Positions 12,530 to 64,000 of a DNA stretch of 64,000 nucleotides are shown here, piece after piece (position 1 is the stretch's first letter; each line of letters begins with the position of its first letter). A program made the position numbers and the translations under genes. This stretch comes from Siphonodentalium dalli (taxonomy: Eukaryota; Mollusca; Scaphopoda; Gadilida; Siphonodentaliidae), in assembly GCA_032622095.1 (NCBI GenBank), contig CP136068.1:5371314-5435313 (forward strand). The letters run 5' to 3'. The notes below the pieces were generated by a model. That model was not told the origin of the DNA, did not search any database, and saw only the letters and a list, made by a program, of their open reading frames with translations.

Positions 12530-13340
12530 GGAAAACAAAATTATTTTCCGAAGTTGGTATCCTTTCCCCTTGAACTGGGCTATCAATATACCAAAGTACA
12601 ACCAAATCCGATGATTCATGCCCAAGTTACAAGTTGAAATGTTCATACAGAGACAGACAAAATTAAGAAATTGCCAAGTCAAACAAGGGCTACAACTCTG
12701 GATAAAACCATTAGTTTAGTCGGTATCCTCTTCCGAGCCATGCTATCAACCAAAGCACACCTGAATCAAATCTTTGCCAAGTTACAAGCTGAAATGTCAC
12801 CCTGACAACAGATAACGAAATTCAATAATTACCACCCGTGTTACAAGGTGATATGTTCGGACAGACACAAAATTAATAAATTTCCCAGTCTAACAAGGGT
12901 CTTAACTCTAGTAAAAATTAATGGATGAAAGTTTTACAACCGACGTAGAATGCGCGCGAATCCAAATAAGGAAATCTGATAACAATTAATGGACGAAACC
13001 TTTAGTATGTGTGTATCGTTTCCCATAACATGTGCTATCACCATACCAATGGACAATGAAATCTGATAATTACCCCCCCCCCCCGCCCCCACCCCCGTGT
13101 TACAAGATGATGTGTTCGGAAAGACACAAAATTAACAAATTTCCAAGTCGAATAAGGGCGGTAACTCTAGTCAAAATTAATGGGCGAAACCTGTAATATG
13201 TGGGTATCGTTTCTCCCAACCTGTGCTATCACCACGCCAAAAGACAACAACATCCGATACTAAACATCTGAGTTAAAAGGTGACATTTTCGGACGGACAG
13301 ACAGACATACCGACAGACGGACGGAACCCTCAACTATATG
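12530..13340 (+). repeat. Modular tandem repeat with (GACG)n tail
   Basis: About four imperfect units carry GGTATC, TGTGCTATCACCA-like and AAGTTACAAGCTGAAATG words. They are followed by GGACGGACAGACAGACATACC and then a weak hairpin around 13335-13372. A C-rich run (13073-13096) interrupts one unit. It lies just downstream of the exon at 13431 with respect to the minus strand. Confidence 0.7.
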
Positions 13341-13430
13341 CCCATACCTCCAACAGGGTCTGGGTTATAATAAATAACATCAGATATATAATTAATAACC
13401 ACAGTTATATATGAATCATGTTATACTTAC

Positions 13431-13563
13431 ACTGATCCTCTGTCTTGAGGAATGGGATTAGACAGTTGACAAAATCAAACTTTCTGAAGTAACTTTTCTC
13501 TACATGACCCTTGGCACAATTAAGGAGGATACAACAAGCAGATTTGTATGCATAGTTATGATC
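13431..13563 (-). CDS. Internal exon of an Armadillo-like host gene (exon D)
   Basis: On the minus strand a clean acceptor (TTTTTCTTTCAG) ends at 13564 and a consensus donor GTAAGT begins at 13430. The 133-bp exon is open from phase 0 and leaves one base over (phase 1). It reads DHNYAYKSACCILLNC, then KGHVEKSYFRKFDFVNCL and IPFLKTEDQ: paired amphipathic helices with ILLNCAK, the style of an Armadillo/HEAT repeat. The phase matches the phase-0 end of the 20268-20783 exon. The next exon downstream should begin with two bases completing a codon; I did not find it between 1 and 13430, where mobile elements and repeats dominate. Known invertebrate proteins of this style can carry ARM repeats with signalling domains, but that is not shown here. 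Confidence 0.68.
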
Positions 13564-13755
13564 CTGAAAGAAAAATAATATCTACATGTGTATTGTAAGA
13601 ACAGATATTAACCAGTATGCATAAGGCCAAAACGAGAGGCTGATACTTAACACATACCTTCAACCATACCGCTGAAAATCAGCGATCTAGAATGGAAAGA
13701 TTGTAAAGATAAATTGTACAGAATATGAACACTAAACATTGAACGATTAGGGTTA

Positions 13756-16149: not shown

Positions 16150-17060
16150 AGTTGTAACCTAATAAGGGCTATCATCAGAAAACCTCAAATATGTTTAATT
16201 CTTAGTTGATAAAGGTTCATAACTCCGGTATGATAAATCAGATCTAACCCATATTCGAACTCGATCTGTATTTTGAGTTGAGAAACTCACATACCAAATT
16301 TGGTTCCTATCAGATGAAAAAAATTTGAGTTATTGCAGCATGCATGAGCTGAGAAATTCTTATACAAAATTTAGTTCCGCTCAGATAGAAAATGTTTGAG
16401 TTATCGCACCATGCGTAAAGTGTCTATGGAGAGACCGACATACGGACGGACAGATGGATGAACGACGAGTGGTCAATCCAGACGTCGACATTATGTGTAC
16501 CATAAAAATGGATATGTGTGTCTGGTAACCAAACCATATATCAAGCCCAAATGCAGAGATAAAATAAAACTTCTTCATTTTGGCCTCTTTATCATTAAAT
16601 TTTAAATGATCATTCAATCATTGTCGATACTCTAGGCTCAAGTTGCCATGAATGTTCTAGTAACATTGAATACTATTTTCTGTTGTCTGTCCTATCTGTG
16701 CACATAACAAATGAAATGGGTCAATGCAGGTCCAATCTTGAATTCTTTTCATTTCTGATTATTTGGAAATTGCAGAGGTGCATATTGTTCCAAATAACAA
16801 AGGATATATCATAATATAAATAAACTTGTTACCAAATTTGTTTGCCTTTTTGCAAGCCATATTGAGTAATATGTCTATCAACACCTCAGTGTGACACATT
16901 TAAGACAGATTAAAACAATAAACACATTTGATACCAAAGATAGTCTACTTGAAAAATGACCAAACCTGAAAAGTGAAATTTTGCTGATTTGATGTCAAGT
17001 TTGGTGAGAGAAATATGCCTGCCCCAATTTTATTTTTTATATTTTATTCTTGCGAACAAA
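16150..17060 (+). repeat. CATAACTCC-type module with (GACG)n tail, then dispersed repeat Y copy 1
   Basis: 16200-16510: TTCATAACTCCGG, CCATATTCGAACTCGATCTG, ATACCAAATTTGGTTCCTAT and TTGAGTTATCGCACCATGCG, then GACATACGGACGGACAGATGG and a terminal CGTCGACATTATG segment. 16640-17050: a different dispersed repeat with TTTTGCAAGCCATATTGAG and GATACCAAAGATAGT; its second copy is at 42580-42800. Neither is coding. Confidence 0.75.
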
Positions 17061-18939: not shown

Positions 18940-20160
18940 AGAGTCTAATAAAAAGGTGCTCTAACTGGGGGGAGCACCCCGGTTCAATGAGTCATTTACT
19001 TAGGGCAGCACAGTAGGTTCTAGGATTTTGTTATTTTCATGTTCAGATTTCGAAATTTTCTCACACTGGGGTATCATCCCATTTTTCAACATGAAGTCAA
19101 TTACTTTGATGATAGTGGTAATTAATTAACAATCAATCAGTATTGCATTCAAAATATTTCGTAATTTGGAGTCTCTATTCTACAAGACAGTCAAAGACTG
19201 TGGGGTCGCGCACCAGACTGCAAAGACTGACACTGGGACTCTGGAGACCATAACAGTCAGAACTTTTCATAATCGCTTTAAAAGAAGTAGATCTAAACAT
19301 GATATGTGGCTAGAGAGGCTTCATGTATGTAGATCGGTGAATATCTACTTTTAAATTACCAACTGTACACTACTGATCACCCCCCCTCCAGCTCAACATA
19401 TCCCCTCCCGACCGGGCTCCAAACTCCAAAGTCTTGGGTTGGAATTTCACAACCGACATCTCAAACTTTCTCAATTGTTGGAAATTTCCAATTTTGTATT
19501 TTAATGATTTTATTAGATACAAAAGTGTTAAGTCCCCATAGCCCCGTCATTTCTTAACAGGTTGACCTCATGTTAACAAATCTGAATCTCAGTCACTAAA
19601 GGATATATTACTGTAGAGACATACAGTTATGTCCCTGATCCCACCCTATTTAATCTGGTGACCCCATCTGAATAAAATTGAATCCCAGGCACCAAAGAAC
19701 CCTTCATACTAAATATCAGTAAAATAGACCTGATGGTCCGTGTGAAGGAAGCATATTAAGAGGAAAACTTTCCTTTGCTTGGCCCCTAGTTGACCAGGTG
19801 ACCCCATTTGAACAAATCTGAACTCCGGTCACACAAGGACCCTTCATACCAAATATGAACCCATTCATACCAGATATAAGCTAAATCGGACCAATGGTTC
19901 TAGACAAGAAGTCGTTTTAAGAAATACTATGGAGGGAAAGAGTTATGGCCCTGGCTTCGCAACTATTTGACCCAGTGACCTCATTTGAACAAATCTGAAT
20001 GGGAGTCACCTAGGGAACATCCACACCAAATATGAACCCATTCCGTCCAATGGAATCAGAGGAGAAGATGTTTAAAGACGGACGGACGATGGACGGATGG
20101 ACGACGGACGAGAAGTGATGACTATAGCTCCACCGGAGACTTCGTCTCAGGTGAGCCAAA
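18940..20160 (+). repeat. CCCAGTCACC modular repeat with (GACG)n tail and C-TTC-G hairpin
   Basis: From about 19560, several units share GTTATGTCCCTGATCC, TTTGAACAAATCTGAA and AGTCAC. They are followed by GACGGACGGACGATGGACGG (around 20078-20110) and the hairpin CACCGGAGAC-TTC-GTCTCAGGTG (20131-20153), then GAGCCAAAA. The same tail and hairpin recur at 48980-49050. The opening part (18940-19560) is less clear and includes single-copy DNA. Confidence 0.75.
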
Positions 20161-20267
20161 AACCACTCAGCTGGGCTTGTATATCTTTTTATTAAACTGC
20201 ACAGCTGGGCTTTTATAGACAGTGTCTCATAATTTTAGTAAATGTATCATTCCAGTCAATAACTTAC

Positions 20268-20783
20268 ATTAACTGTGTCAGCTTTATCTCGAAGAGCATC
20301 CATATCTTTATAAAGATGACCAAACATATCGGTTTCCGCTAATCTTTTACAGAATTTGGAACTGGCAATACAAAATATCCATAGTGTCTCACGAATAAAT
20401 TCCAATGTTGGTCCACCTTTCAGCATTGACGCAACTGCCTCATCATAATAATCCATCTTCAGTTGTTCAAGAATAAATGTATAATAATCCACAACAGCTG
20501 GAATGAATCCAGCGTCAGCGAGCATGTTTCCTAAAACCTCACGCTCCTCATCAGAATTATGAGTGAAATACACATCATAAATATCAGAAATAAGCCTGTT
20601 CCTAACATGGCCAGTCTCTGGATCTTTCTTTTTACATAATTCAGTCATTGACTCGAATATACTTTTATGCAGGTGTAAACTTGGGTACTTATCGTAAAGA
20701 TCCATCTCCAGAATCAGTGTCAAAATAAAATCTGGGTCATCTTGTTTCATTTCTGCTCTTTTATCCGAATGCATTTCTTTTTC
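20268..20783 (-). CDS. Internal exon of an Armadillo-like host gene (exon C)
   Basis: The longest convincing host exon. The acceptor is TTAACATTTCAG, ending at 20784; the donor is AAT|GTAAGT at 20268/20267; length is 516 bp, exactly 172 codons, phase 0 to phase 0. The protein is all-helical with alternating acidic and hydrophobic faces: EKEMHSDKRAEMKQDD, ILEMDLYDKYPSLHLHKS, DIYDVYFTHNSDEEREVL, GFIPAVVDYYTFILEQL, GPTLEFIRETLWIFCIAS and FCKRLAETDMFGHLYKDMD. This pattern fits an Armadillo/HEAT-type superhelix, usually a protein-binding scaffold in cytoplasm or nucleus. I recognise no specific orthologue. The frame is intact and codon use differs from the surrounding repeats. A 1.75-kb satellite sits 57 bp upstream of its acceptor. 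Confidence 0.8.
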
Positions 20784-20840
20784 CTGAAATGTTAATGAAT
20801 TTCGGAAAATATAAGTGATAATGGGCCTTTAATAATAAAA

Positions 20841-24350: not shown

Positions 24351-24365
24351 TGAGCTGCTAAACTA

Positions 24366-25912: not shown

Positions 25913-26095
25913 ATCTTTGTGTTCTTTGAATGATGTGTGTCCGTCATCATGGCCTTGACCCGGCCGGTGGACCTGCCGAATTATTTTGGGTTGGCTAGCA
26001 TCAGGTTCATTTGAACTGTCCAATTTTCGCTTGGCCTTTTTATTATCTTTTGTGATTTCTCGCGAAAACATCTGCAACTTATATGCGAGTTCAAT
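25913..26095 (-). CDS. Internal exon of an Armadillo-like host gene (exon B)
   Basis: Minus strand: acceptor TTATTTTCCTTGCAG ends at 26096; donor GAT|GTGAGT is at 25913/25912; length is 183 bp, exactly 61 codons, phase 0 at both ends. It reads IELAYKLQMFSREITKDN, then a basic and polar stretch KKAKRKLDSSNEPDASQP, then IIRQVHRPGQGHDDGHTSF and KEHKD. The first part is helical and the rest looks like a disordered linker with a KKAKRK basic patch that could act as a nuclear localisation signal (inference). Its phase lets it splice directly to exon C (…KEHKD then EKEMHSDK…). Confidence 0.68.
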
Positions 26096-26214: not shown

Positions 26215-26990
26215 GTACATAACCCCTAGTGGCATACCGCCTAGTGTGGGCATATCTATAACTTATGACTGCAATACTCAGACAGATAGACCCAAAAATC
26301 AGCATTTTCATATAAACGAAGATGAATAACTATAGCACGAAAAACAAAACAAAACAGTTGAAAATGCCATTAAATGTCCTCATAGTGGTGAACATCCATA
26401 CAAAATTTCATTGAGATCCGAGCATTACTGTTCAAGTTATGACCTGAACAGACATCGGGTGGACCAAACAGCCAACATGTCCAGATAAACGAACTTGAAT
26501 AACTCTAGAATGGAAAAGCCAAACAGAAAAATGGAACCCTCTATTGAATGTCCTCACAGTGGTGAACATCCATACCAAATTTCATTGAGATCCCAGCACA
26601 AATGTTGAAGTTACGACATGAACAGACACCAGACAGACCAAAAAGCCAACATTTCCAGATAAACAAAGATGAATAACTCTAGAATGGAAAATCCGAACAA
26701 AACGATGGAATCCTCCATTGAATGCCCTCATAGTAGTGAACATCCATACCTAATTTCATTGAGATCCGAGCACTATTGTTCATGTTATGACATGAACAGA
26801 CATCGGACAGACGGACGTACGGACGGACGGATGCATGGACGTACTGGCCAAAGTATACTTGTGGGGTGAATGCACATACCCATGAATACTTGTGGGGTGC
26901 GATCTTTTGTTTGAGTAAATTGTGGGGTGCAACCCACAACTGACGATTTTTTAAAGAGCGTATTTTTAAATTGCAATTCAATTGCGCTGA
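26215..26990 (+). repeat. Modular tandem repeat, about 175-bp units, with (GACG)n tail
   Basis: Three units carry CCAGATAAACGAA, GAATAACTCTAGAATGG, GTGGTGAACATCCATACCAA and TTCATTGAGATCC. They end in GGACAGACGGACGTACGGAC (26805 onward), then three copies of a TTGTGGGGTG phrase (26860-26935). Confidence 0.8.
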
Positions 26991-29612: not shown

Positions 29613-29689
29613 ACATACCCTTTTGACCATGGATACACGGTTGTGAATGAGTTTCAGGTTAAGTAGTGGGCATATATAATGACCATCCG

Positions 29690-31154: not shown

Positions 31155-31307
31155 TATTAATCGCAAGAAGAGCTAATTGCGCTTAAGCACAATAAGGGAA
31201 TCTCTATTGTGCTTAAGCGCAATAAGTAAATATTTAACTGTGCTTAAGCGCAATAATGGAATTTTCAAATTGCGCTTATATAATAAAACCCAATAAGGAA
31301 TCTCTTA
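31155..31307. repeat. Palindrome cluster, GCGCTTAAGCGC type (left of the array)
   Basis: Three or four copies of an AATTGCGCTTAAGCGCAATA-like palindrome, several followed by AAGGAAT. The cluster ends directly where the higher-order array begins. Confidence 0.8.
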
Positions 31308-33331
31308 ATGAAAGTGTCAATGACACTGTAGCTCAACTTAGGTAGGGGAATAATTTAATGGTTGACAGTAAATGGAGGAATAGGAAAGGTGCTAATTGAA
31401 ATGTCTAACATGCGCCAAAGGATTTAGTGATGCAAAGAGTAAAATACAAGATGGCTGCTGGTGGCCATTTTTTTTGGCCAATTGACCCCAAAAGAACTCG
31501 TTCCCATCTACGTATAATTGTTAACATCCATGACAAATTTTATGAAGATCTGACCAAAGCTACGACATACAAATTTCATGATGATCAGACGAACAGTACG
31601 ACCTGTAGACCGCGCCAATGGATTTAATTTTGAAATCCAAGATGGCCACTGGCAGCGGTGTTTTTTGGCCGAATGACCCCACAATGATTCGTTCCCATCT
31701 ACATGTCAATGTCAACATTCTTGACAAATTTAATAAAGATCAGACCAAAGGTATGACCTGTAGCCCACGCCAAAGGATTTAGTCATGCAAAAAGTAAAAT
31801 GCTGGTGGCCATGTTTTTTTGACCGAATGACCCCAAAACGACTCGTTCCCATCTACATGTCATTGTTATAATTCACGACAAATTTCATGACCATCTGACC
31901 AAAGCTACGACCTGTAGCCCGCACCAAAGGATTTAGTCATGCAAAGAGTAAAATCCAAGATGGCTGCTGGCGGCCATGTTTTTTGACCAAATGACCCCAA
32001 AACGACTCGATCCCATCTACATGTCATTGTTATCATTCATGACAAATTTCATGATGATCAGACGAACAGTACGACCTGTAGCCCGCGCCAATGGATTGAA
32101 TTTTGAAATCCAAGATGGCCGCCAGCAGCCATGTTTTTTGGCCGAATGACCCCACAATGATTCGTTCCCATCTACATGTCAATGTCAACGTTCATGACAA
32201 ATTTTATAAAGATTAGACAAAAGGCAACCTATAGCCCGCGCCAAAGGATTTAGTCATGCAAAGAGTAAAATCCAAGATGGCTGCTGGTGGCCATGTTTTT
32301 TGGCCGAACGACTCCAAAATCACTCGTTCCCATCTACATGTCAGTGTTAACATCCATGACAAATTTCATAAACTTCCGACCAACACAACGACCTGTAGCC
32401 CGCGCCAAAGGATTTAGTCATGCAAAGAGTAAAATCCAAGATGGCTGCTGGCGGCCATGTTTTTTGACCAAATGACCCCAAAACGACTCGATCCCATCTA
32501 CATGTCAATATTAACATTCATGACAAATTTAATGATGATCAGACGAACAGTACGACCTGTAGCCGGCGCCAATGGATAGAATTTTGAAATCCAAGATGGC
32601 TGCCAGTGCCAGCAGCCATGTTTTATGGCCGAATGACCCCACAATGATTCGTTCCCATCTACATGTCAATGTCAACATTCATGACAAATTTCATAAAGAT
32701 CAGACCAAAGGTACGACCTGTAGCCCGGGCCAAAGGATTTAGTCATGCAAAGAGTAAAATCCAAGATGGCTGCTGGCGGCCATGTTTTTTGGCCGAACAA
32801 CTCCAAAATCACTCGTTCCCATCTACATGACAGCGTTAACATCCATGACAAATTTCATAAACTTCCGACTAAAACAACGACCTGTCGCCCGCGCCAAAGG
32901 ATTTAGTCATGCAAAGAGTAAACTCCAAGATGGCTGCTGGCAGCCATGTTTTTTAGCCGAACGACCCCAAAATCACTCGTTCCCATCTACATGTCATTAT
33001 TAACATCAATGACAAATTTCATGATGATCAGACGAACAGTACGACCTGTAGCCCGCGCCAATGGATTGAATCTTGAAATCCAAGATGGCTGCCAGCGGCC
33101 ATGTTTTTTGGCCGAATGACCCAAAAATGACTCGTTCCCATCTACATGTCAATGTCAACATTCATAACAAATTTCATGAAGATCAGACCAAAGGTACAAC
33201 CTGTAGCCCGCGCCAAAGGAAATTGTTGACGGACACACGGACACATGCACACACGTACACACGGACACACGGACGACGGCCGCCAAACCATGGCAATAGC
33301 TCAAACTTAACAAAAGTAAGTTGAGCTAATA
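31308..33331 (+). repeat. Higher-order tandem array: 160-bp monomers in 480-bp triplets
   Basis: The array starts with the family head (AATGAAAGTGTCAATGACAC, TAGCTCAACTT). About eleven monomers follow, each with CCAAGATGGC, GGCCATGTTTTTTGGCCGAA, CTCGTTCCCATCTACATGTC and GACAAATTTCAT. It closes with (GACA/GACG)-type repeats near 33226-33290 and a terminal hairpin, TAGCTCAAACTT…AAGTTGAGCTA. One monomer variant (GAACAGTACGACC, then CCAATGGATTGAATTTTG) recurs at about 31591, 32064, 32544 and 33034, so every third monomer shares it. Other short frames in this stretch are products of the repeat. Confidence 0.9.
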
Positions 33332-33461
33332 AGGAATATATTATATATAGTACATAAACTCCCTATAATTCAGGTGGTGTAGTCCATCTCCATGGTACAA
33401 TGAGTGGAACAAATATAGGATTATTCTACTATTTGCACAGGGGTGATCTAATGAGAGAGAT

Positions 33462-36509: not shown

Positions 36510-37178
36510 AAAAATAGGAGACTCCCATCCAGAGGTCATCCAGAAGATGAGGGGTGTGGTATGTTGGGTGTGCCAAAGGATTTAGTCATGCAAAATGTAA
36601 AATCCAAGATGGCTGCCAAATTTGATTCAGTTCACTTGATTCAATCTAATGTTGTCATCCGGCAACCGCAAATCAGGTAAAATCCAAGTCGAAAAAGGGA
36701 TATAACTCAGTCAAAATCATGCGGACGAAACCCATATTCGAACTTGATGTGTATTTTGGGGCGGTAAACTAATAGGCCAAATTTGGTTCAGTTCACTCGA
36801 TTCAATCTTATCATCCGGAAACCAAAAGCGGACGGACGGACGGACGACGGACAGAAAACCCATTTACATAATACGACCGTTTTTTTCAAACGGGCGTATA
36901 CAAAATGCGGGCTGCAGGGTGTGGCAATGGATTCAAATTTGTAATCTAAAATGGCTGCTGGCAGCCATGTTTTAAAAACAATTTTGGAAAAAATTGATCG
37001 CTCACATCTAGGGATCATCCCGAAGATCCATATGAAGTTTGGTGATGATCGAATAAGGGATACGGCATGTTGGGTGTGCCAAAGGAAATTGTTGACAGCC
37101 GCGTGCACGCAGGGATGCACAGACGACGTACTTCAACCCATGGTAATAGCTCACACTTTACAAAGTAAAGTTGAGCTA
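36510..37178 (+). repeat. Mixed modules with (GACG)n tails and two terminal hairpins
   Basis: 36510-36660 is an AAGATGGCTGC unit. 36690-36900 is a GATATAACTCAGTCAAAATC unit ending in GGACGGACGGACGGACGACGG and the hairpin ATACGACCGTTT…AAACGGGCGTAT. 36900-37178 is another AAGATGG unit ending with CATGGTAATAGCTCACACTT…AAAGTTGAGCTAA. Confidence 0.8.
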
Positions 37179-38110: not shown

Positions 38111-38624
38111 ATGATTACGTCAGTATGTATAGACAACCCAACACACATCCATCTATAACCTGATAAATGCATGTTTCATGGGAGTGCCTGAACATATAAA
38201 AATGGAGTAAACTTGTGACAAACACGTCCTTGTTAATTTTGGTGCCCCTACCTGATCCGACGGTGTTTTGGCGACTGCCCAAAATAATGATATTCCTCAT
38301 AGCACGGAGATGCCTGGCTATATACCACTTTGGACAACATAATTATAATCTTCACACCAAGCAGATGCTTGTCTATTTACATAATTATACAAACTTATTT
38401 TCCTTGATCTCTTACATAAGTTACAACGGAATTATGGTGACAGCATTAATTATCTCTTCCGCACCATGATGTATACAGTTCCCTGGGTATCTATATATCA
38501 CATGAACATCCCCTATCCAGTCTAGAGATATTAGCGATGTAAATCATATTTACTATATCTGTTCAAAATGGCTATCATCTCGTGAAGGTTGAATCTGGCC
38601 CAGCGACCAATTTTCAAGGCAAAA

Positions 38625-39150
38625 TTAACAAGAGATGTGCACTCGAGTGTTAGAATACCCCAAAGAAGCTTGTACAGAAAATATTATTCAAATTGGTTCA
38701 TATTTGTTAAAGTTATTAAGTCGGACAGAATTTTCTAAGTCAAAATAAGTCGAAAATGAAGTGTAATATTACGAAAATCAGTCTTAGCCAATCCCTAGCC
38801 GCATCATGTAGAGAGGGTATTGTGAGAAGCATGTATACCAAAAATTATTGAAATCGGTTCGTATTTGTTAAAGTTATTAAGTCGGACCGAATTTTCTAAG
38901 TCAAAATAAGTCGAAAATGAGGCGTAACTTAAAAAAGAAAGTCGGACCGAACCGCAATTAGCATCATGCGGAGAGGCAGTCCTAAGGAGATTGCATACAA
39001 AAAATTATTGAAATCGGTTCATAGTTGTTCGAGTTATGAGGTCGGATGGACGGACAGACCGACAGACACACGGAGGGAGAAAGCGTGACGGACGGACGGA
39101 CGCAGTCAATCCAGTATACCCCCCATTTTCTTCGAAAGTGGGGGTATAAT
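38625..39150 (+). repeat. Modular repeat with (GACG)n tail and C-TTC-G hairpin
   Basis: Three diverging units carry AAGTTATTAAGTCGGACCGAA, TTTTCTAAGTCAAAATAAGTC and TTATTGAAATCGGTTC. GACGGACGGACGGACGCAG (39090-39103) follows, then the hairpin TATACCCC…TTTC-TTC-GAAA…GGGGTATA (39115-39148). Confidence 0.88.
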
Positions 39151-39469
39151 TAATTTAATTTTACAATATTTTAGAAAAAATATCTTATTGCATAAATTTA
39201 CAAATGTTACTGAATACATTTTGATGATGTGAAAGACTGGGATTCGTTGCATAGCGTTATTTCACATAGCCACATCTGATTTATTTATAGAAATTTATGT
39301 ATGTTTGACTTTCAGCGAGTTACATGGGTGGGGCACACTGAATCAATGAGACACAATTTCGAACCTAGGGTAGGATCAATCTTCAGTTGATAGGCACTTC
39401 AAAAAGGAATGATATAATTTGACAAATGACTATTGTTTTGGGCTGGAGTGAATAAATAATTTAGATAAA

Positions 39470-46922: not shown

Positions 46923-47710
46923 CTATCAGTTGAAAAATTGTTGATTTAACGAAGCATTCATGAATTATATGTCAAAGGGCCATAACTCCATAAAAAAATA
47001 TCGGATCAAACCCATATTCGAACTCGATATGTATTTTGGACTGAGCAACTCACATACCAAATTTGGTTACGGTCAGATAATTTTTTTTTATTTATGGTAG
47101 CATGCATGAATTCTAAGTTGAAAAAGGGCCATAAACTCCGTAAAAAAACTCGGATCAAACCCATATTTGAACTCGATCTGTATTTCTCATATACAAAATT
47201 TGGTTACGATTGGATAGAAATTTTTTGAGTTATCGCACCATGCGTAAAGTGTCTACGGACAGACAGACAGAGAGACAGACAGAGACGGACGGACGGACGG
47301 ACGGACACACGACGGGTGGTCTATCCGGATGTCGACATTATGTTTATGGTATGGGTAAACATAAAAACGTAAAAATTCCACTTCCGGTCGCCATTTTGGC
47401 GGCCATTTTGGACGGGGAGTTCCAATTTTGTCACGTAAAGATGGCGTTATGTCATAGCTTCACAAAAATGTATACATGTGTATACATATGACAAGATGTT
47501 CTGACAATAATTGCATCAAGCTGACTTATAGGAAAATGGCAGTCATCTTGGACGCCATCTTGAATTACAAAAAGTGCTCAAAGTGGATTTTAGATATGTT
47601 ATAGAGGAGAGCTTCCTCTTCAAAATGGTATAAAAACCAACTTAGTGCGAATTTTTTCTAGGTTGACCCTAAAATTTGAGTTTATCGACCAGACTAAAAA
47701 CAAACTGATG
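46923..47710 (+). repeat. CATAACTCC modules with (GACG)n tail, followed by repeat X (inverted)
   Basis: Two units (CATAACTCCATAAAAAA; CATAAACTCCGTAAAAAA) share CCCATATT(C/T)GAACTCGAT and are followed by GACGGACGGACGGACGGAC (47286-47304) and a TTATGTTTATGG-TATGGGTAAACATAA hairpin (47340-47362). 47370-47710 is repeat X in minus orientation and supplies the uninterrupted reference for the copy at 39470-40760. Confidence 0.85.
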
Positions 47711-47939
47711 TCATTGTGCAATAGTGATAGCTTCGGGGCATTTCCTATACAGTTACTACCCATTAATCAGGCGTGCATGATTTCACCTTAAAACGAAGCC
47801 AGGCCATGACCTATTAAAGATAATACCATGTGCAACGATACTATATTTCGATAAATAACAGACTATCGAACCACAAAAATACGGACAGGGGTGTGTCATT
47901 ATAAACCTACATATCAAATATGAACACAATCGGACAAAA

Positions 47940-48518
47940 AATACTTAAGTTATGGCATCGGATAGAACATCACGGATGCAAAGTGTTAATGATTTCTAAA
48001 CCGATCAACACCAAAAAATATTCAGGTGAGAAGTGTGTCATCATAAACATGCACATAAAATTTGAACACGATTCGATAAAAATATTTGAGTAAATGAATC
48101 GGATAGAAAGTGTCTACAGACAGACATACGGACAGACAGCCGGACGGACAGACGGATGGACAGACGAACGACGGATGGTTGATCCGGACGTCGGCATTAT
48201 GTTTACCATACATCGTATGGGTACACATAAAAAATACTTAGGTTACAGCATTGGATAGCTCATGCAAAGTGTTAATAATTTCTAAACCGATCAGCCGATC
48301 GATACCAAAAACTATACAGGTGAGGGGTGTGTCATCATAAACATGCACAAAAACTTTGAACAGAATCCGATAAAAAATACTCGAGTAATCGAATCGGATA
48401 GCATGTGTCTACGGACAGATGGACGGACAGACAGGTTGACAGATGGATGAACGAACGGCGGATGGTTGATCCGGACGTCGGCATTACATGTACCATACAT
48501 GGTATGGGTACACATAAA
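47940..48518 (+). repeat. Tandem dimer of a 288-bp module, each with tail and hairpin
   Basis: Two units (about 47940-48230 and 48231-48518) share GCAAAGTGTTAATGATTTCT, GTGTGTCATCATAAACATGC and GAATCGGATAG. Each has its own GGACGGACAGACGGATGGAC-like run and ends TTGATCCGGACGTCGGCATTA with a TTTACCATACAT-like hairpin. Complete modules can therefore be duplicated head-to-tail. Confidence 0.88.
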
Positions 48519-48524
48519 AATGTA

Positions 48525-49050
48525 ATTTTTGGAGTTATGTCTCTGGCTCTGCCCCTATTTGACCAAGTGACCCCATTTGAACAAATCTGAACCCCAGTCA
48601 CCCAAGGTCCCTCCCTACCAAATATAAGCTAAATTGGCCCAATGTTTCTTGAGAAGATGTCATTCGAAGAATGACTATGATGGAATAGAGTTATGGCCCT
48701 GGTTTCTCAACTAATCAACCTGGTGACCTCATTTAAACAAATCTGAATGTCAGTCACCTAGGGAACATCCACACCAACTATGAACCCATTCAGCATTATA
48801 ATTCTGGAAAAGAAGTCGTTCTAAGAATTAATATGAAGGAATAGAGTTGTGGCCCTGCTTTCTCAACTAATTGACCTGATGACCTCATTTGAACAAATCT
48901 TAATGTGATTCATCTAGGGAACATCCACACCAAATATGAACCTGTTCCATCTTACGGTTCTGGAGGAGAAGATGGTTCTTGACAGACGAACGACGGACGA
49001 GGAGTGATGACTATAGCTCCACCGGAGACTTCGTCTCAGGTGAGCTAAAA
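48525..49050 (+). repeat. CCCAGTCACC modular repeat with C-TTC-G hairpin, second copy
   Basis: TTATGTCTCTGGCTCTGCCC, TTTGAACAAATCTGAA and GGGAACATCCACACCAA units are followed by GACAGACGAACGACGGACGA and the hairpin TAGCTCCACCGGAGAC-TTC-GTCTCAGGTGAGCTA. It is a direct counterpart of 19560-20160. The DNA from 49050 to 49690 shows no recognised repeat or gene. Confidence 0.88.
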
Positions 49051-49689
49051 TGGTTAAGAAGTTTTATTAGTCCAGTGCTCTGACTAATTCAAGATAACAA
49101 TATTTAGTTTTGAACCATTCAATGTTATCTGAATTGTGAAGCTTTCTAGATTAACTTGTCAATGACCCAATGGAATTCAGAATAAAAAAATAAAAACAAT
49201 TTTTAAAAATCCCTACCTACCAACCCTATTTAGACCATGTAACCCTAAACACAGGTATTATATTTTGGCCTCAAACACCATGATTGTCTGTGGTTACTTG
49301 GCTTGAGATATATGTCAATATCGTTAGAGGACATTTGTCCTAAGGTCTATCATCAACCTACAATCCAATGGTCCAATTAATGTATATATACACAATAGTG
49401 ATTGATAGATACACATGCTGGCGAATGGCTCTATAAATTGATTCCGAAAACAAATGGACGTGCAATGTACGTGAACCGGTGGCCGGGCAACAGTTTTTGG
49501 TGTGAATATATTCTGCTGTATCCGCTCTACCGGTGCTTATTTCAGATAAAACATTGATCATTTCCCGATGTGAACAGATATATTCTTGGGAGCCATTGTA
49601 TTGCTTGACTATTCTAGTATTACCGTGACTCTGTTTTTCCAATAAAATAAATATTATATTTTACCCATAAGAGTGAATCTTTTCTACCG

Positions 49690-50504: not shown

Positions 50505-51425
50505 CAAGAGCTACGCTGGGCGTGCAAAATACGCCCTCTCTTGGGTCGGCGGAAACTGGTAAAAAAAAGGGGCATAACTCTGGTAAAAATTGGCGGACGG
50601 AACTCAAATTTGAACTTGACCTGTGTTTTGGTGGGAGAAAGTAATACACCAAATTATCATTGAATCCGATAAGCTCTAGTAAAGTTATCATCAGGACAAC
50701 AAATTTCAAATTACGTCAAATAAGGGGCATAACTCCGGTGAAAATTGGCGGACTGAACCCGAATTCGAGCTTGAGCTGTCTTTTCTCCTAATAAACCCAC
50801 ATACCAAATTTTATTGAAATCGGTTCACTCTAACTAAAGTTATCATCCGGACAACAAATTTCAGGGCTTTTCTAAGTCAAATTACGTCAAAAAAGGGGCC
50901 ATAACTCTCGCAAAAATTATCGGATTAAAATGAAATTCGGACTTGAGCTGTATTTCGATATATGTAATCCACAAAAAAACGGGTTTTGTGTATAAACATT
51001 CCAAAATCGAGTTATCATCCGGAAACCAAAAAACATAAGAAAAACTGAATTTTCTGAGTCGAAAAAGGGGCATAACTCTGCCAAAAAACACAAGTTCGAA
51101 CTTGACCTGTGTTTTGGTGGGAGAAAGTAATATACCAAATTTGGATTCATTCCGATAAACTATACTAAAGTTATCATCCGGACAACTAAACAAATTTCAA
51201 GGATTTTCTAAGTCCAAAAACGTCAATAAGGGGCATAACTCCGGTGAAAATTGGCGCGCGGAACCCAAATTCGAACTTGAACTTACTTTTCGGCTAATAA
51301 ACCCACATACCAAATTTTATTAAATTTGGTTTACTCTGACTAAAGTTATCATCTGGACAACAGGTTAACGGACGGACGGACCAATACTATAATACAGCCT
51401 TTTTTTTCAAAACGGCATATAAAAA
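50505..51425 (+). repeat. GGGGCATAACTC tandem array, five units of about 165 bp, with tail
   Basis: GGGGCATAACTC or GGGGCCATAACTC recurs at about 50568, 50725, 50895, 51066 and 51222. Each unit also has GAACTTGACCTGT-like and AAAGTTATCATC-GGACAAC words. It ends AACGGACGGACGGACC and the hairpin ATACAGCCTTTT…AAAACGGCATAT. Confidence 0.9.
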
Positions 51426-51429
51426 GTAT

Positions 51430-51890
51430 CTATAAAACTGTGTTATTGTTCCGTTTCTGGGCGTCCAAAAGTCCAGATTTAACCATTGCATGAGACCAAG
51501 CTTTCGATTGCTCTCTCGTGTGAGTCATTAGAGTGACGTCGTACATCTTATACTTCTGTAATTATTATTCCTCGAATAACTAAAGCGTTTGTTCACTCTT
51601 ATAGGACTAGTTATTAAATTTTGAACAACATGTAAATTTCATTCCGTTTTGTCGATTTTGGTGGCCATTTTGGGCAGACATGAATTTGACATTAATTGAT
51701 GCACCTACCGAAGAAATCCAGCAATTTTCGATACCAACAGTCATTTTGTATGTCATCTTGAATAGAAATTTTTCCCCAAGGCCGATTTTAGCAGATTTTG
51801 TTGTTCCCCAGATTACACAAAATGACACCGAAACCAGCTTGTTACAAATTTTTTCCAGGTCAAACCCTTTAATGACTGGATTAAGAGTGG
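51430..51890 (+). repeat. Dispersed repeat R, copy 2
   Basis: Matches 10560-11060 in order and orientation: GGGCGTCCAAAAGTCCAG, GATTGCTCTCTCGTG, TTGATGCACCTACCGA, ATTTTGTTGTTCC and AAAATGACACCGAAA. Confidence 0.8.
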
Positions 51891-52980: not shown

Positions 52981-53865
52981 GCAATTGTGTGGGCTGCGTG
53001 GCGTGATATTAAATTTCAAGGAAACCCGCGTACTAACGTGATCATATATCCCAAGTTGGTCGGAAGTACATGTACAAGCACACCCATGAAACATACATTT
53101 ATCATTTTATTGATGGATGTACGTGTTTTGGGTTGTCCATATACGTATTGACGTAATCATATTACTCATGTCATGAATACATAGAGAATTCCCCTAGTTA
53201 TTTTTAATATCATGGCAGGTTAATAGCCGCAGTTAAGCGAGACCGCTTTATTGTGCTATTTATAACGACCCCGCTTGGGTCATGTATATAGGTAACATGC
53301 ATGCGTACGTACTAGTACTTGTGATGTCACACATAAATTACAGTATACTGTGAAGTAGAACATTTTATCGAACCAACATTTTCTCGAAAAAATAACGTGA
53401 CTTCCGGTAGTTGTTTCACAAAATTGCATAATCGGCAATGGAACGAATTTGCTACTTCACAAACTTCCAATATGTGGCAATGGACCACTGAAGTATTTAT
53501 TTATTTATAAACAGTAAGTTGTTATAAATATGTCCTGCATAGGTTCATATCAGATCAATTTCATTTGTTAGCTAAAATAAGGCAGTTACGGTGTCATGGC
53601 GTCAAAACATCACTTGTCTATGCGGGCCAGAATCCAGACATGATAGAACGTGTCATGTCGTCTTCGCGATCAACTGATTTCACCTGACTGTAGACTATAC
53701 ATCTATTGATTGATTTATTGATTGAGGATTTAACGTCGTTTTCATCGCTAGGCTATATATCACGACCATACTGGGAATGTAAAAGCAGACACGCGCTTCA
53801 ATTACTAGTTATATTATACCGGCTTGATTTAGTACTGTGTCCGACAAAATTATACATGTTTGCAA
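52981..53865. other. No gene recognised
   Basis: Single-copy-looking flank of the promoter-like cluster, with no supported coding frame. Confidence 0.35.
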
Positions 53866-55177
53866 AAAGTCGAAAAAGGGGGGATAACTCCACCAAAAAA
53901 AGTCCGACAGACGTCATAATCGCAGGTGCACAGGTTCCCATGGTGGTTGATGTCTGTGCCAAGTTTCACGGAAGATGATTACTAACGACTGAGAAAAACT
54001 CCGGACAAATTTGTGTCCATGGCTCGATGGACGACGGACGACAGACGGACGATGGACGGACGAGCCGATTCCAGTATACCCCCTCCCCCACAACTTCGTT
54101 GCTATAGCTCAACTTTTGTGATGAGCAATAAATGGAATGATGAATTGAATTATCAAATCCAAGATGGTCGCTGGCAGCCATGTTTTTTATGCCAAATGAC
54201 CCCAAATGACTCGTTCCCATCTGCATTGTATATGTCAATGTCAACAGCTGTGACAAATTTCATAATGATCCGACCAAGGTACGACCTAGACCAATTGATT
54301 TAGTCATGCAAAGAGTAAAATACAAGGTGGCTGCTGGCAGCCATGTTTTCTGGCCGAATGACCCCAAAATGACTCGTTCCCATCTACATGTTATTGTTAA
54401 CATCCATGACAAATTTCATGATTATGCGACCAAAGGTATGATCTGTAGCCCGTGCCAAAGGATTTAGTCATGCAAAGAGTAAATACATGATGGCTGCTGG
54501 CAGCCATGTTTTTTTGGCTGAACGACCCCAAAATGACCCGTTCCCATCTACATGTCAATATTAACATCCATGACAAATTTCATGATGATCAGACAAACAG
54601 TACGACCTGTAGACCATGCTAATGGATTGAATTTTGAAATCCAAGATATTTTTTACCGAATGACCCCAAAATGACTCGTTCACATCTACATGTCAATGTC
54701 AACATCCGCGACAAATTTCATAATGATCTGACCACAGGTACAACCTGTAGCCCGTGCCAAATGATTTAGTCATGCAATGAGTAAAATCCAAGATGGCTGC
54801 TGGCGGCCATGCTGTTTGGCCAGTTGACCCCAAATGACTCATTCCAATCTACATGTACATGTCATTGTTAAGTTAATATCCATGACAAATTTCATGATGA
54901 TCCAACAAAAAGTTATGACCTGTAGCCCATGCCAAATGATTTAGTCATGCAAAAAGTTAAATCCAAGATGGCTGCTGGCGGCCATGTTTTTTTCCGAATG
55001 AACTCAAAATGACTCGTTCCCATCTAAATGTCAATGTCAACAGCTATGACAAATTCGATAATGATCCGAAGGTACGACCTGTAGCATGTATTGTTGACGC
55101 CTCACACACATACACACACACGGACAACAGATACCAAGCCATGGCAATAGCTCAAACTTTACAAAGTAAAGTTGAGC
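53866..55177 (+). repeat. Two module families with tails: GGGGATAACTCC unit, then AAGATGGC array
   Basis: 53866-54110: AAAAAGGGGGGATAACTCC, a GACGACGGACGACAGACGGA run (54030-54062) and CAAC-TTC-GTTG. 54105-55177: TAGCTCAACTT, then about six units like those at 31.3-33.3 kb, including the GACAAACAGTACGACC variant at 54594, ending CACACACGGACAACAG and TAGCTCAAACTTTACAAAGT…TTGAGCTAA. Confidence 0.88.
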
Positions 55178-56689
55178 TAAAAACGTTTGGCCAATTTAAA
55201 AAAAAACTTTGGCCAAATTAAAATCCTCATTTTCTGGGCTGTTCGCATTTGATGACAACTTTAAAAACAAAATATTATATGAACTGTATGATTTAGGTCG
55301 CTGACTAATACAGTACTTTCATGATGTGAAGCAAGCTAGAATGTTGTTATTTGATGGGAGGCAGTTTATGTCACATTTCGTAACCATTGAGTTAGTACTG
55401 CTGGCCTGTACATCCAATTATGGGACAATGCATTTAGATTTTATCTTACAGCCTGCCAAATCAACAAAAAATTACATAACCAGTGTACAGATTAAGCATT
55501 TTGACGAATAGTGTTTTAAATCCAATATTATTTTAAATGGCTGGTTAAATGTTAGAGCTTACCCCGTTGCTGTCTCGTGAAGTTTGATTATATACAATTT
55601 CAATGTTGTGCAGCCAGCCACGAAATGGTTACTTTGCCAGCCAGATTGAACATACTACAGAACATCACACCCTTCTTATTGTCATTGTCAACCAAGGTCT
55701 GTTCATCGTCACATCACCATTCAATCAACGCTCCCATAACAAAATAAATTTCGGTTTTCATGGTACATGTGTACAATATTTACGCAGTACAAAATACTTT
55801 CGTCGCCTAACTTCGTCGGGACTGTCAAACTTTTTGAATCAGCTTTCCATCTCCATTTGGGGTAAAAGAATTCTTGGCCAAAAGTTTGGCCAAATGAAAT
55901 TTTTATTGGCCAATTTGGCCACCGACAGCGCGAACACTGCAGGTGTGTCTTCCTTTGATTGTTGGTCAGGCATTTAATTAGGGCGGTGATGCTAGTATGT
56001 TGTTGATTCTCTGTCATGTCTGGGCATTCCAATGCTTCCTCATAAATATTTATATATTATCAACTGGGAACATGACGACTTTTTTCCTAAAGGATCATTT
56101 ATTGTGTCGTCTGATATTGTTCCAACATTATTTTGAATGCCATCAGACAGAGACTAGGAGTTGGCAAATAACACAGAATAATTCGAATGTGAACGTAAAT
56201 AAAAAAAAATTAAAAGATACTAAAAAATAGGCTAATGCAATTCAGCACTGAAATTACACAACCGCGTTGACCCACAAGGCAATGTGTTAAACTTCAACGC
56301 AGTCCGCATTAAACTTCAACAAAGTTCGCTGTATTTAAACATGGTCTTAATGTTCACTCAACGCGTATCTAATTTCAGGATCTGGTTGTCGGGGGTCAAT
56401 TTCTGGGGCAAAATATGATTTTTTAACATTTCCCTCATGCTACCCAACCTTAATTTTATGCATTTTTTGGGTTAGTTCATGTGATGCTCATCAGTATAAG
56501 CTTCGTAATCTATGTACAATTTAACATATTCTTTGTTTAATTTGGGAGAGAGTTGCCAGATAATCGTTTGACGTTTGAGCTGTGACGTATTTTGTTAATC
56601 GTGAACGTATTTTCGTGATTCAGCTAAATGTGTCGGTTTCAACTCCGTTTATCAGAAACTTATAGGAAATAAGTAATGTTCGATTAACC
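55178..56689. other. No gene recognised; possible decayed element
   Basis: TTGGCCAA-type words cluster at 55187-55225 and, partly inverted, at 55868-55920 (GTTTGGCCAAA; TTGGCCAATTTGGCCA), which could be ends of a decayed 0.7-kb element. An open frame of 124 codons (55603-55977) spans one cluster and has no recognisable motif. The rest is AT-rich. Confidence 0.35.
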
Positions 56690-59602: not shown

Positions 59603-60010
59603 TAATAATCATATAATAATATAAAGTGGGGGTTAGAGTCCCACACATGCATCATAAATGTAAAGTGCGGGAAAGAAAATGCGTTTAAACTGAACAACCG
59701 CACTCTTCAAACGTCGGGCATTATTCGGATATCGGAAACCGATATTTAAGTTTTCCGATCTTGCATTCGTTGCTATATAATCATAATTAACTACAAACGT
59801 GACACGCCAGCTAGATTCGCGAATTGCGTATGTACTATTACTAGTATTAAATTCAGCACTCTACTTTGCTTCAAACATAAGCATGTTTTTTCTCTCAAGC
59901 CGAACAACGGACGTACCTCGCTGGACAAAACAAGTGTACAATGCCACCGCGGTGTACTTGCCGTTCGGCCGCGGTGTCACTTTGTGGAACCGCGGCTGAG
60001 CACCGCGGCC

Positions 60011-60142
60011 GAACGGCAAGTACACCGCGGTCGAACGGCAAGTACACCGCGGTCGAACGGCAAGTACACCGCGGTCGAACGGCAAGTACACCGCGGCCGA
60101 ACGGCAAGTACACCGCGGCCGAACGGCAAGTACACCGGGGTT
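60011..60142. repeat. 22-bp subterminal array, 6 copies (left)
   Basis: Six head-to-tail units, GAACGGCAAGTACACCGCGG plus two bases, start at 60011, 60033, 60055, 60077, 60099 and 60121. An inverted copy (CCGCGGTGTACTTGCCGTTC) lies at about 59946-59968, so the block can fold back. Arg/Thr-rich frames here are products of the repeat. Confidence 0.95.
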
Positions 60143-62542
60143 AGATTCCTGGTTTGTATCGTCTTTTTTTCTCGAGTTTAAAACATGTTTTATTAGTAGA
60201 AATATACGAAGGTTAGTATTTTTAATTACAGGAAATTTAAATCCGTACATAATATCGGCTTTAAGGTCATTATGCAAATCACATTTATATTTAACCCAAC
60301 TGTTTCAACGATCTAACGTACCGGTAGATTTTAATGGAACTTTGTTGTCAAATATAAAAAAAACTTCATGCGTCGATCCTGTGCATGCTAGCACGTCGAC
60401 ATACACCTGTCAATCATCCAGGATTAGTTTGTGAGATTTTATTCTCTGCTTCAATTGGTTGGCTGTGGGAGGAGCTTACCGATATTTTGTTCTAATGTGG
60501 TATGCTTTGACACCATAACCGAGATTTGGTAAATAAAATGATTCCCATGTTTTTATTAGAGTTGCTATTATTTTTGAAAAAAAATATGATCAAATGAGCA
60601 TATTAAATAAAAGTGTTATATTATCGATCCATATATGTGGCAAATCCATTGCCAAGTAAAAATTAATTGCCAGAAACTGAAAATACGCGACATTTTACAC
60701 TTTGCTCGATCTATAAGTCCACGGTATTTGCCACCAGAGTAATGAGAGGATGGACTGAATAAAGATTACACAAACAATGTGTGTTGAAAAACAAATTAGA
60801 AGTGTGATGGGACACGTGTATAAGGTCAAAAGGAATAATGCACACGTTTCCCCGAACGGACACCCCGAAATTAGGGGTGGGCGGTAAGCTTTTCAATTCA
60901 TTTAATGTTTTCCGTTTTATTATGCATTAACAAGCTATTGAAAATACACCATTTATTGTATTCTCTACCAACATTCCTAAATATAAGAATTTAGTCATCA
61001 TATTCAAATAACAAATTTCATGTTGACAAGTTTTGAAAACCACTAGCCCTGATCAGAAAATGCAGATAATTCGGGGAAAACCTCGCGTGCACAAACAACC
61101 ACGCGGTCAATACGTCATGAATGCGTTTATTACTGGTATAATTTATGTAGGAATCTGGATTTTAAAAACCAGACAGATATGACATATATTGACAAGTATA
61201 GTATCTCAACAAACATGCTTACTGTAATAGAGTTTCATAAATAAATAAACATTGGAATACACAGCGGCGCCGTATACGCCAATAAAAAAAACGGAGAACC
61301 ACGATTCTTTTGTTTTCGCAACAGCAGTACATTCTCAGATATTCCCGTTTTGTTGAAGCGATGCGCTCTGGTGCCGTGTTTCCCAGAAAGCCGATTAATT
61401 TAGCACAATTCTAATGATCCCATGATCTCCCTCCCATATCCGATCTATTGCAAATTCACAAAAACGAACCACGTGGTCGCTTTTATTCAATGGATGTATA
61501 AACCATGCATGCCTCATTAAATTTTTATTTTGTTATATATCCATTATAAAGTATTGTTTACGTATATTGCCACAAAAAATTGAGTGAAACCCTCGATTGG
61601 GAGGTTGATAACCGCCGTTAATTTTGCGCACATCTGTACATCTCAAATGCCAGGTGCACGCGATTACGTCAGCATTATTCAGAAACTGGGCGCGAGGAAT
61701 GTAGCAATGACATTGTTTGCTACATCGTAACTGTTTGAGTTAACATGATTATGACATGTCACTTTCTCCTCGATATTCCCTTTCAAGTTTTATCAAAGTT
61801 CAATTGGCATGCTGTCGCAGTTTTGTCTTTAAAGTAACCACGGTATTGAAAGGATTTGAATATTTAATAGGTTCATAAAATCTTCGCGGGAGAAAAATAC
61901 CTGATCACGCACAAACGCTCTTTATTGTTCATTCTGAAGACAATTCTGGCACAGATTTTTATACATTCAATGGACGGCAGTGAATTCCAAAAGGAGGTCC
62001 ACATGGGTGGATGTTGTCAGTATATAATTCAAACCAAATAATAGTTGTAATTAATGTAAAAAAAAAAATATTTAACAAGAGAAAACAACATCACAATAAC
62101 AAATATTTCAACATGGGCAAACAAACAGTCCAAAGTAGGATGCGACAATCCTTATTTTATAATCAGTCTTAAATGACAGCATAGTGATTCAATTCTCTCA
62201 TGATGATGCTGCCACGTGTGCACGACATTCCAATGCTTATTTCTCAAAAAGACACCTGCTGCCAAATCTAGATGAAGTCTGTTGTCGGCAACATCACACT
62301 TCCGTGTCGCCTAATAATTATCAGCGGGAGCCTTTTCTAATCAGGATGGATTATGACACCTTGATTTTATGACAGTTTACTGGTGGGACGTACGTTGACT
62401 ACTTAAAAGATTATCACACCTTGTCACCATACAGATTAACCCTCAAACATATAATAGATCGTCTGACGGACGGTATTTAGACAATGGCCTCAATCAAGCC
62501 TCATTTATGGTGCCCTCTTTGTGTTTTTCAACATCATTCCAA

Positions 62543-62697
62543 GAACGGCAAGTACACCGCGGTCGAACGGCAAGTACACCGCGGCCCGAACGGCAAGTAC
62601 ACCGCGGCCGAACGGCAACTACACCGCGGCCGAACGGCAAGTACACCGCGGCTGAACGGCAAGTACACCGCGGCCGAACTGCAATCAGCCGGTGGAG
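62543..62697. repeat. 22-bp subterminal array, 7 copies (right)
   Basis: Units start at 62543, 62565, 62588 (one extra C), 62610, 62632, 62654 and 62676. The consensus is the same as the left array, in the same orientation on the + strand. Inverted copies follow (TTGCAGTTCGGCCGCGGTGG at about 62709). Confidence 0.95.
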
Positions 62698-63389
62698 CCG
62701 CGGTGTTGTTGCAGTTCGGCCGCGGTGGCAACGCAAACCGCACCGCGGTTAAGTGGACACTTGTTTTGTCCAGCGGGGTATACTAGAACATATACGTCAA
62801 AATTATACAGTTTTCAACAAGTCGGGATTAAAACATAAAATATATCGTGTTGAGTACCGATGGTGATAACAAAAACATACAATCAACTCCTGGTCGATTA
62901 TGAAGTTACCACTTTGCCGTGATCGCTAAAACACAAAACGATAACATACATTGGTAGATGCATGGGTAGTACCCCTCTCTTTCCCATTAAATATTCAAAT
63001 ACTGGAAGGTTAACGTTTACGTGCGAATTAACCGCAGTTAAGGGTTATTAACTGCGGTAACCTAACCGCATGTAACTGCGATAACCTAACCGCATGTAAC
63101 TGCGATGCCACCGCAGTTACGGCAAATAACTGCGGTGCGGTTATGGTTTAACCGCAGTTGTAAACGGATTATAACTGCAGTTAATGGATCATTTGCTTAG
63201 GGCATAACAGTATATTGACCCCGCAACAACCGGATTCCGAAATTAGAATAGTTGGGCTACATAGATATGGTGGTCGCTGAAATTCCCATTTCAGGTGACA
63301 CCTCGGGTAATGAGAGCCCATACTAAATACATGTATATGGATACCTATTTCCTAGTTTCAAACTCTACATTTTAAAGAGTGGGAGTTGC

Positions 63390-64000
63390 TTACACAATGA
63401 AGGTACCCAAAATCAAAAAGGTCAAAACTTTAAAACTTTTCTAAGTCAAGAATGGAATAACTTGGTGAAAATTATTTGTTGCACATCAGCAATATATTGG
63501 TAACAATATCTAGAGTTTCAATTCTCTACATTCGAAACTGTGGGAGGAGTTGATTACAAAATGAAGTGACCCATAATGTGTGATGGATAAACAAACAGAC
63601 GGACAGAAGGACACTTGAACAGCCAGACATATGGCTAGATGGACAAACCGACAGACAAACAGACAGATGCAGTCAATCCAGTATACTCCCCATTTTCTTT
63701 GAAAAGTTGGGGTATAATTATATACATGTAGTAATTTCCATTGAATTCTGATTGATAGTCAAAATTATCCTGACAACCTGGAGGGACGAAATGATAGTTT
63801 TGGGAGTTCCAGTTTGTGGGACCTTCAGCAAGAGTTATGAGACTTCCTGAGTCAAAAAAGGGCCATAACTCCTGAAAATTTAGGAAAAATTTGAAATTGA
63901 CCAAACATGTTTCTGGGAATTTTTCCAGTTTATGGGACTTTTCAAAAGTCTCACAAAAATAATGTATCTGTCCAGGAGTGTCCAATAATGTCTATGTCAA
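63390..64000 (+). repeat. Modular repeat with (GACA)n tail and hairpin; next module starts
   Basis: Two units share AGAGTGGGAGTTGCTTACAC or GTGGGAGGAGTTGATTACAA, followed by ACAGACGGACAGAAGGACAC … AGACAAACAGACAGATGCAG (63593-63670) and the hairpin TATACTCCCCATTTTC-TTT-GAAAAGTTGGGGTATA (63679-63716). From 63840 another module begins (GGGCCATAACTCC) and runs off the window. Confidence 0.85.

Follow-up and report, generated by a model that had tools for sequence, protein, structure and literature searches.

To our knowledge, the insertion site and direction of eukaryotic rolling-circle elements are poorly understood. Among the closest described systems is Cg_HINE of Crassostrea gigas. The accessible part of its description gives it a 5′ subterminal inverted repeat (subTIR) with a complementary inverted repeat (IR), a left-flank GTCY/GTCC microsatellite, tandem repeats that are satellite-like and keep one orientation, and a 3′ subTIR with a palindrome; Cg_HINE is said there to integrate in both orientations without preference for chromosomal segments, and that part mentions no link to gene direction (PMC7492417). 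For DINE-1 and the HINEs of insects and mites, with which we compared descriptions and not sequences, the accessible text does not take up how copies are oriented towards genes (PMC4067079), and the direction of HINEs or Helitrons relative to genes was likewise absent from the titles and abstract openings listed in searches of open-licence papers. In mammalian introns, the orientation of LINE, LTR and SINE repeats departs from 50:50 and purifying selection has been proposed, as far as the accessible parts of these reports go (PMC3088655, PMC1794541, PMC3517506), the first of which excludes DNA transposons from its orientation analysis. Here, we describe 64,000 nucleotides of the scaphopod Siphonodentalium dalli (contig CP136068.1 of GCA_032622095.1, or G000:C8:5371314-5435313; hereafter the window), part of a genome of 2.227 Gb in nine contigs, in which modular repeats with (GAC[G/A])n tails all face one way. 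Such an orientation pattern offers a handle on whether elements land in a preferred direction or wrong-facing copies are weeded out.

A preliminary description of this DNA had listed about fifteen tails, all in a single orientation. With a chain scorer, we found 15 (GAC[G/A])n tails on the + strand and none on the − strand, while a mirrored-window control gave 2. This split corresponds to a binomial p of 6e-5, though the tails are not independent: those at 39.05 and 39.09 kb belong to one element, as do those at 47.26 and 47.28 kb, and those at 48.1 and 48.4 kb share one 287-bp tandem. Thirteen of the 15 places listed earlier were recovered, filling the scorer's 15 rows, and the remaining two (33230 and 55110) are ends of the family designated c below, with tails too degenerate for the scorer; the list had overlooked one family c end, at 37168-37178. 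Runs of at least two units occupied 44 rows on + (overlapping rows counted) and 3 on −, at 3709, 16684 and 25938, the last of which lies within a probable exon of the host gene (25913-26095); no element was recognised by eye in the sequence around the other two. When both strands of the window were scanned with a library of 16 element bodies cut from + elements, 18 clusters were found on +, bodies that lack a good tail among them, and a single 38-bp match on −, which was the only opposite-strand copy to turn up. The single orientation of the tailed repeats in the window is thus confirmed, by bodies as well as by tails.

The tailed elements fell into at least five families, sorted by eye according to the hairpin 3′ of the tail on the + strand: a (TATACCCCC; 39.1, 63.6 and 54.05 kb), b (GCTCCACCGGAGAC; 20.1 and 49.0 kb), c (TAGCTCAAACTT; 33.3, 37.2 and 55.1 kb), d (GACATTATGTTTACC; 16.4, 47.3, 48.1 and 48.4 kb) and e (CGTTTTTTTCAAACG; 36.8 and 51.4 kb). 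The elements at 13.3 and 26.8 kb stand without family assignment. Family c, the best preserved, displays the architecture of a HINE, that is, of a non-autonomous Helentron. Its 5′ end, read on the minus strand, consists of TAGCTCAACTTTACTTTGTAAAGTTTGAGCTA, a subTIR plus its complement, and then a short degenerate GTCY tract, and TAGCTCAACTT...AAGTTTGAGCTA or a near variant ends at 33328, 37178 and 55179. The 5′ subTIR/IR hairpins of this family have z of −3.9 and −4.4, and hairpins at the equivalent place in families a, b and e have z of −2.9, −3.5 and −3.7. Beside the IR lies a GTCY-type microsatellite, which is short and degenerate in family c (33229-33274, under the scorer limit) but clear in the other four families. 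Centrally, family c carries satellite-like tandem repeats of period 164 (31800-33220 and 54155-54628), and its 3′ end shows the subTIR AAGTTGAGCTA and then the palindrome AGTGTCATTGACACT at 31329 and at L014:4990, with degenerate versions at 30254, 37595 and 49715. At 54105 the subTIR is present but the palindrome is missing, and that end folds weakly (z −1.9). By eye, the 5′ flanks looked T-rich.

In layout, as described, family c thus shares with Cg_HINE each of the parts listed above; the wider likeness of our elements to those described from bivalve molluscs is an impression only. Because the GTCY microsatellite sits in the left flank of Cg_HINE (PMC7492417, accessible part), the canonical direction of the elements in the window is minus. 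For families a, b, d and e, no left-hand copy of the subTIR with at most 3 mismatches was found in the window, where the sole match was family a's own IR; we therefore call these families only HINE-like, and their 5′ ends are placed putatively, by analogy. The tailed modular repeats are best explained as non-autonomous elements of the rolling-circle type, belonging to several families that are HINEs or close to them. At 37168-37215 two family c HINEs meet head to tail, the 5′ end of one at 37178 and the 3′ palindrome of the next copy at 37185-37199, as expected for tandem rolling-circle insertion.

The minus-strand host gene proposed in the preliminary description proved real, judging from the exon at 20268-20783, which has splice sites, an open frame and matches at 10 other loci of the genome (66-72% protein identity); against Pfam this exon gave only a sub-threshold match (DnaB, E 0.027). 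Where the gene is supported, at this exon and the probable one at 25913-26095, the HINEs are co-directional with it. Of the earlier statement that the repeats are antisense, the part that concerns the GACG strand stands, but the family c copies are sense to the host gene by HINE layout.

Across the genome, five pattern searches returned strand counts of 6493/6597, 17009/17523, 76818/75436, 11701/11642 and 8216/8423, with backward-pattern controls of at most 43, except for 936/1068 in the 17009/17523 search. The whole genome is thus near 50:50, and the orientation bias is local. We counted orientation pairs on contig 1 (C1) only, from 0 to 17 Mb and among the first 100 matches listed for each pattern, all of them on C1, after merging overlapping or tandem pattern rows to loci by script and partly by hand. 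G000:C1 684-930 kb holds a segmental array of tandem units, spaced ~14.6 kb and ~11.2 kb apart, whose HINE signatures have one orientation. This array was excluded from the three-signature, F-vs-HINE and cross-family tests, and rows of one pattern past 17.13 Mb were dropped from the cross-family tests; the first pair counts of tail loci retain the array at 732-818 kb, and only the consecutive counts so marked and their permutation are array-free. The first 100 tail places on contig 1 occur in runs. With the array in, the 78 loci to which they collapse agreed in orientation in 11/12, 32/34 and 29/33 pairs at 1.5-10, 10-30 and 30-60 kb; array-free consecutive tail loci less than 100 kb apart agreed in 34 of 43 cases (permutation p 7e-5). 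With three signatures pooled, consecutive loci less than 50 kb apart agreed in 55 of 71 cases, a value reached by 0 of 20,000 shuffles.

In a stricter test, agreement was also found between different families. For distance classes of 3-10, 10-30, 30-60, 60-120, 120-250 and 250-500 kb, family c ends agreed with tail or module-B loci in 18/21, 45/53, 43/59, 78/131, 64/217 and 154/390 pairs, respectively, and in about half of the pairs farther apart; the first two classes together give 63 of 74 pairs with the same orientation. A cross-family block sign-flip gave p 0.0014, with positive values in 15 of 19 informative blocks. In the 9.71-17.1 Mb subset of the cross-family data, which lies beyond the reach of the 17009/17523 listing and in which a few pairs below 3 kb may be single elements, agreement was 32/35 at 0.5-60 kb (14/17 for nearest neighbours only) and 7/38 at 120-250 kb. 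Module A (AAATCCAAGATGGC) agreed more weakly with tail or module-B loci (23/38 below 60 kb). Perfect GGACx4 loci past 9.69 Mb showed no mutual coherence (4/8 for consecutive loci below 50 kb) but nonetheless agreed with local family c ends, forming part of the 32/35. Different families therefore agree in orientation locally. The dip at 120-250 kb looks like an alternation of like-oriented domains, and a few dense ones, such as those at 9.24-9.48 (−), 9.55-9.70 (+) and 9.73-9.85 Mb (mostly −), may account for it.

These counts bear on two explanations. That the window holds a chance cluster and the pattern is overstated would fit a single window, picked post hoc, with linked tails, but we consider it very improbable, as the pattern recurs on another chromosome with other signatures and under permutation. 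Local duplication, in which tandem or head-to-tail spread would put copies near their parent in the same orientation, finds examples in the tandem units at 47.98-48.52 kb, the head-to-tail junction at 37178 and the array on contig 1. It nevertheless seems quite improbable as the general cause, given that different families 10-60 kb apart agree in 88 of 112 pairs with that one segmental duplication excluded, and given that it predicts no link to gene strand. The cross-family agreement on contig 1 likewise supports the earlier remark that no single local duplication explains the window.

We then turned to introns of genes of known strand, defined through exon matches of four Pfam families. A gene was a group of same-strand exon matches, so that its extent comes from domain matches and not from transcripts, and a few groups may be two adjacent genes. 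The sample comprised 29 pieces between exon matches, from 23 genes, picked by exon coordinates only, with a second batch picked after the first result was known, and elements were found by blastn with the window's element bodies. Fifteen element clusters were present in 12 genes, 13 of them HINE-sense and 2 opposite. Counted by gene, 10 of 12 were HINE-sense (p 0.039), and strong matches only gave 8 of 9 clusters and 7 of 8 genes (p 0.070). HINE pairs across gene-oriented pieces were the same in 17 cases and opposite in 6, with the piece L011 involved in all six, while repeats common to gene-oriented pieces of different genes, other than HINEs and the family F described below, gave 1091 same and 967 opposite pairs. 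This shared-repeat comparison replaced a control based on the repeat ACCATTTTGAAGAGG, which was unusable because it occurs as +/− pairs ~4 kb apart. The sampled introns thus contain an excess of HINE-sense copies, and the orientation of HINEs is likely gene-linked. The preliminary description had proposed counting orientation genome-wide and in introns; in the parts of this count that were run, the strands were about 50:50 overall, and the window's rule, kept by 13 of the 15 intron clusters, survives.

The link to genes also bears on replication-directed insertion, in which copies would be taken up by the single-stranded DNA at one side of the replication fork, so that their direction would follow the fork and flip at origins and termini. 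Bacterial single-strand insertion sequences are coupled to replication, and the ~100-kb coherence, together with agreement below one half at 120-250 kb, resembles alternating domains. We nonetheless regard this explanation as improbable, since for 10 of 12 genes the direction follows from gene strand and the dip may rest on a few dense domains, such as those at C1 9.24-9.85 Mb.

Tentatively, and with rather less than even confidence, we favor the view that HINEs accumulate along the transcription of their host genes, that the gene determines their direction, and that loss of opposite insertions is the main cause. The HINE 5′→3′ direction would then be the transcription direction of the gene whose intron holds the copy, and a long gene would fill with copies facing one way, leaving the genome overall at ~50:50; direction would be set by the gene and not by the replication fork, chiefly through removal of insertions facing the other way. 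Such insertions would be lost because their RNA would carry purine tracts of (GAC[G/A])n, after which family b has the donor-like CAGGTGAGC, an arrangement that could set up a cryptic exon. With a weight matrix, we found 4 donor-like sites of at least 7 bits on the GAC strand and none on the opposite one; the 4 lie in 3 of the 16 segments, from families b and d. Were selection the cause, the repeats would carry an unusually costly direction-dependent signal.

The gene link implicates transcription either as a filter, as in selection, or as a target, as in transcription-directed insertion, in which an HUH endonuclease would join the HINE strand to the single-stranded non-template strand of a germ-line bubble or R-loop, and inserted copies would run with the gene from the outset. 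The transposition chemistry of HUH elements lies behind this second model, which we judge possible but on balance unlikely. The favored HINE 5′→3′ direction corresponds to the non-template strand, as the model requires, and the size of the bias (8:1 for strong clusters, 13:2 for all) and its sharing across several families fit directed insertion well. Other repeats in the same pieces are closer to random (1091:967), and target composition does not explain the bias, since the sampled introns show little run asymmetry (T3/A3 1.04, T4/A4 1.02, T5/A5 0.96, T8/A8 0.77). On the other side, the element in L011 is opposite. We placed selection slightly ahead of directed insertion because of its precedent in mammals (PMC3088655, accessible part). 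The mammalian intron retroelements and the HINEs described here have in common an orientation relative to genes that is off 50:50; the mammalian cases, in the accessible parts of the reports, are retroelements that are mostly antisense, with human SINEs near exons sense (PMC3088655, PMC1794541, PMC3517506), whereas in our case the sense-biased element is a rolling-circle DNA transposon, and adjacent families agree. If insertion is directed, HINE direction would be a record of germ-line transcription. The broader claim that rolling-circle transposons insert strand-specifically into transcribed genes, with the HUH nuclease targeting the displaced non-template strand, appears rather unlikely to us; if true, HINE-rich genomes would preserve, in domains of ~100 kb, a fossil map of the direction of transcription (or of the fork). 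With a ~50:50 genome made of ~100-kb like-oriented domains, in which families agree, the question of insertion direction becomes accessible to annotation and polymorphism data alone.

Several observations weigh against the selection we favor, or against the gene link on which it draws. The sample was small, with 11 of the 23 genes lacking any match, and the limit between strong and weak matches was fixed after the first body-search result, 6 of the 15 clusters being weak and short. L011, a piece of a minus-strand gene at C8:120.7 Mb, contains a family e-like element that is well preserved yet faces the other way, with a clear gene-sense tail. Other repeats lean as well (53%; gene pairs 81:58 with 16 ties), and the difference between HINEs and these repeats gave a Fisher p of 0.058 on non-independent pairs. 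When the first 20 pieces were scored by tails only, 7 tails were gene-sense and 3 gene-antisense, with 3 in a mirror control, a result that taken at face value opposes the window's rule. Five of the 7 gene-sense tails come from an array of family F in L017, another is an isolated GACA run (L009) and the last belongs to the exception in L011; the switch to HINE bodies, with F counted apart, was made after the tail-only result was known. A k-mer count gave 12 antisense and 6 sense segments (mirror control 3), the sense ones being five of family F (four in L017 and one in L026) and L011. Family F (L017:4240-9100, +) is built of 122-bp modules and a (GACA)n tail, then CTTCAAAATATATATGAGA, and its core has 77,207 exact matches genome-wide. 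Its pairs across gene-oriented pieces were the same in 12 cases and opposite in 0, with the tail on the gene-sense strand in L017 and L026 and weakly so in L002, L011 and L022. Because the family F tail is gene-sense, a purine tail alone cannot be the target of negative selection. The expected opposition of F and HINEs on contig 1 was not significant (p 0.24, 24 of 34 F loci used), and the drop in agreement to less than half of the pairs 120-250 kb apart (64/217; subset 7/38) is not what a simple gene model predicts. No donor-like site reached 7 bits in family c, which is the clearest HINE, and acceptor-like sites numbered 2 on the GAC strand and 9 on the other. Poly(A) signals numbered 13 and 12, respectively, which weakens the poly(A)-signal variant of the selection idea raised in the preliminary description.

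Table 1. Elements and host-gene exons in the window. For elements, the strand is the HINE 5′→3′ direction; GACG reads on +.
Feature	Position	Strand	Details
HINE-like element body	12530..13330	-	tail 13292-13322; without family assignment
Family d element	16150..16530	-	tail 16433-16451
Family b element	19563..20165	-	tail 20077-20109, then hairpin GCTCCACCGGAGACTTCGTCTCAGGTGAGC
Host-gene exon	20268..20783	-	TTTCAG acceptor, GTAAGT donor, open frame
Probable second host exon	25913..26095	-	TTGCAG acceptor, GTGAGT donor, open frame
Element with 174-bp tandem repeats	26283..26900	-	tail 26799-26840; without family assignment
Complete family c HINE	31305..33332	-	3′ palindrome 31313-31327, subTIR 31329-31339; interior ~164-bp repeats; degenerate tail 33229-33274; 5′ subTIR/IR hairpin 33297-33328
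Family e element	36530..36905	-	tail 36831-36852, then hairpin
Family c copy	36906..37178 (left limit uncertain)	-	5′ end at 37178
Family a element	38600..39160	-	tails 39049-39067, 39087-39101; hairpin TATACCCCC
Family d element	46938..47367	-	tail 47258-47313
Two family d units in tandem	47840..48520	-	tails 48119-48172, 48414-48440
Family b element	48540..49060	-	tail 48981-48998
Family e element	50560..51440	-	tail 51371-51381
Family a end	53860..54104	-	tail 54030-54061; abuts family c element at 54105
Family c HINE	54105..55190	-	3′ subTIR 54105-54115, without AGTGTC palindrome; 5′ subTIR/IR hairpin 55148-55179
Family a element	63200..63730	-	tail 63598-63664

Besides the features in Table 1, a short match at 62465 lies outside every element known to the body library. 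Next to the host gene, 35 copies of a 50-bp unit, 99% alike, occupy 20839-22588 of the window, starting ~55 bp upstream of the acceptor of the first exon listed (minus strand). A fragment of a non-LTR retrotransposon lies at 132-2789 (−), its reverse transcriptase and its endonuclease domain being encoded in different reading frames, and a 22-bp unit, CACCGCGGCCGAACGGCAAGTA, forms two arrays 2.4 kb apart, at 60001-60137 and 62543-62684. One repeat family occurs in both orientations, at 40203-40440, 43141-43269, 47363-47670 and 56685-57401; its core pattern is frequent on contig 1 as +/− pairs ~4 kb apart, which suggests inverted ends.

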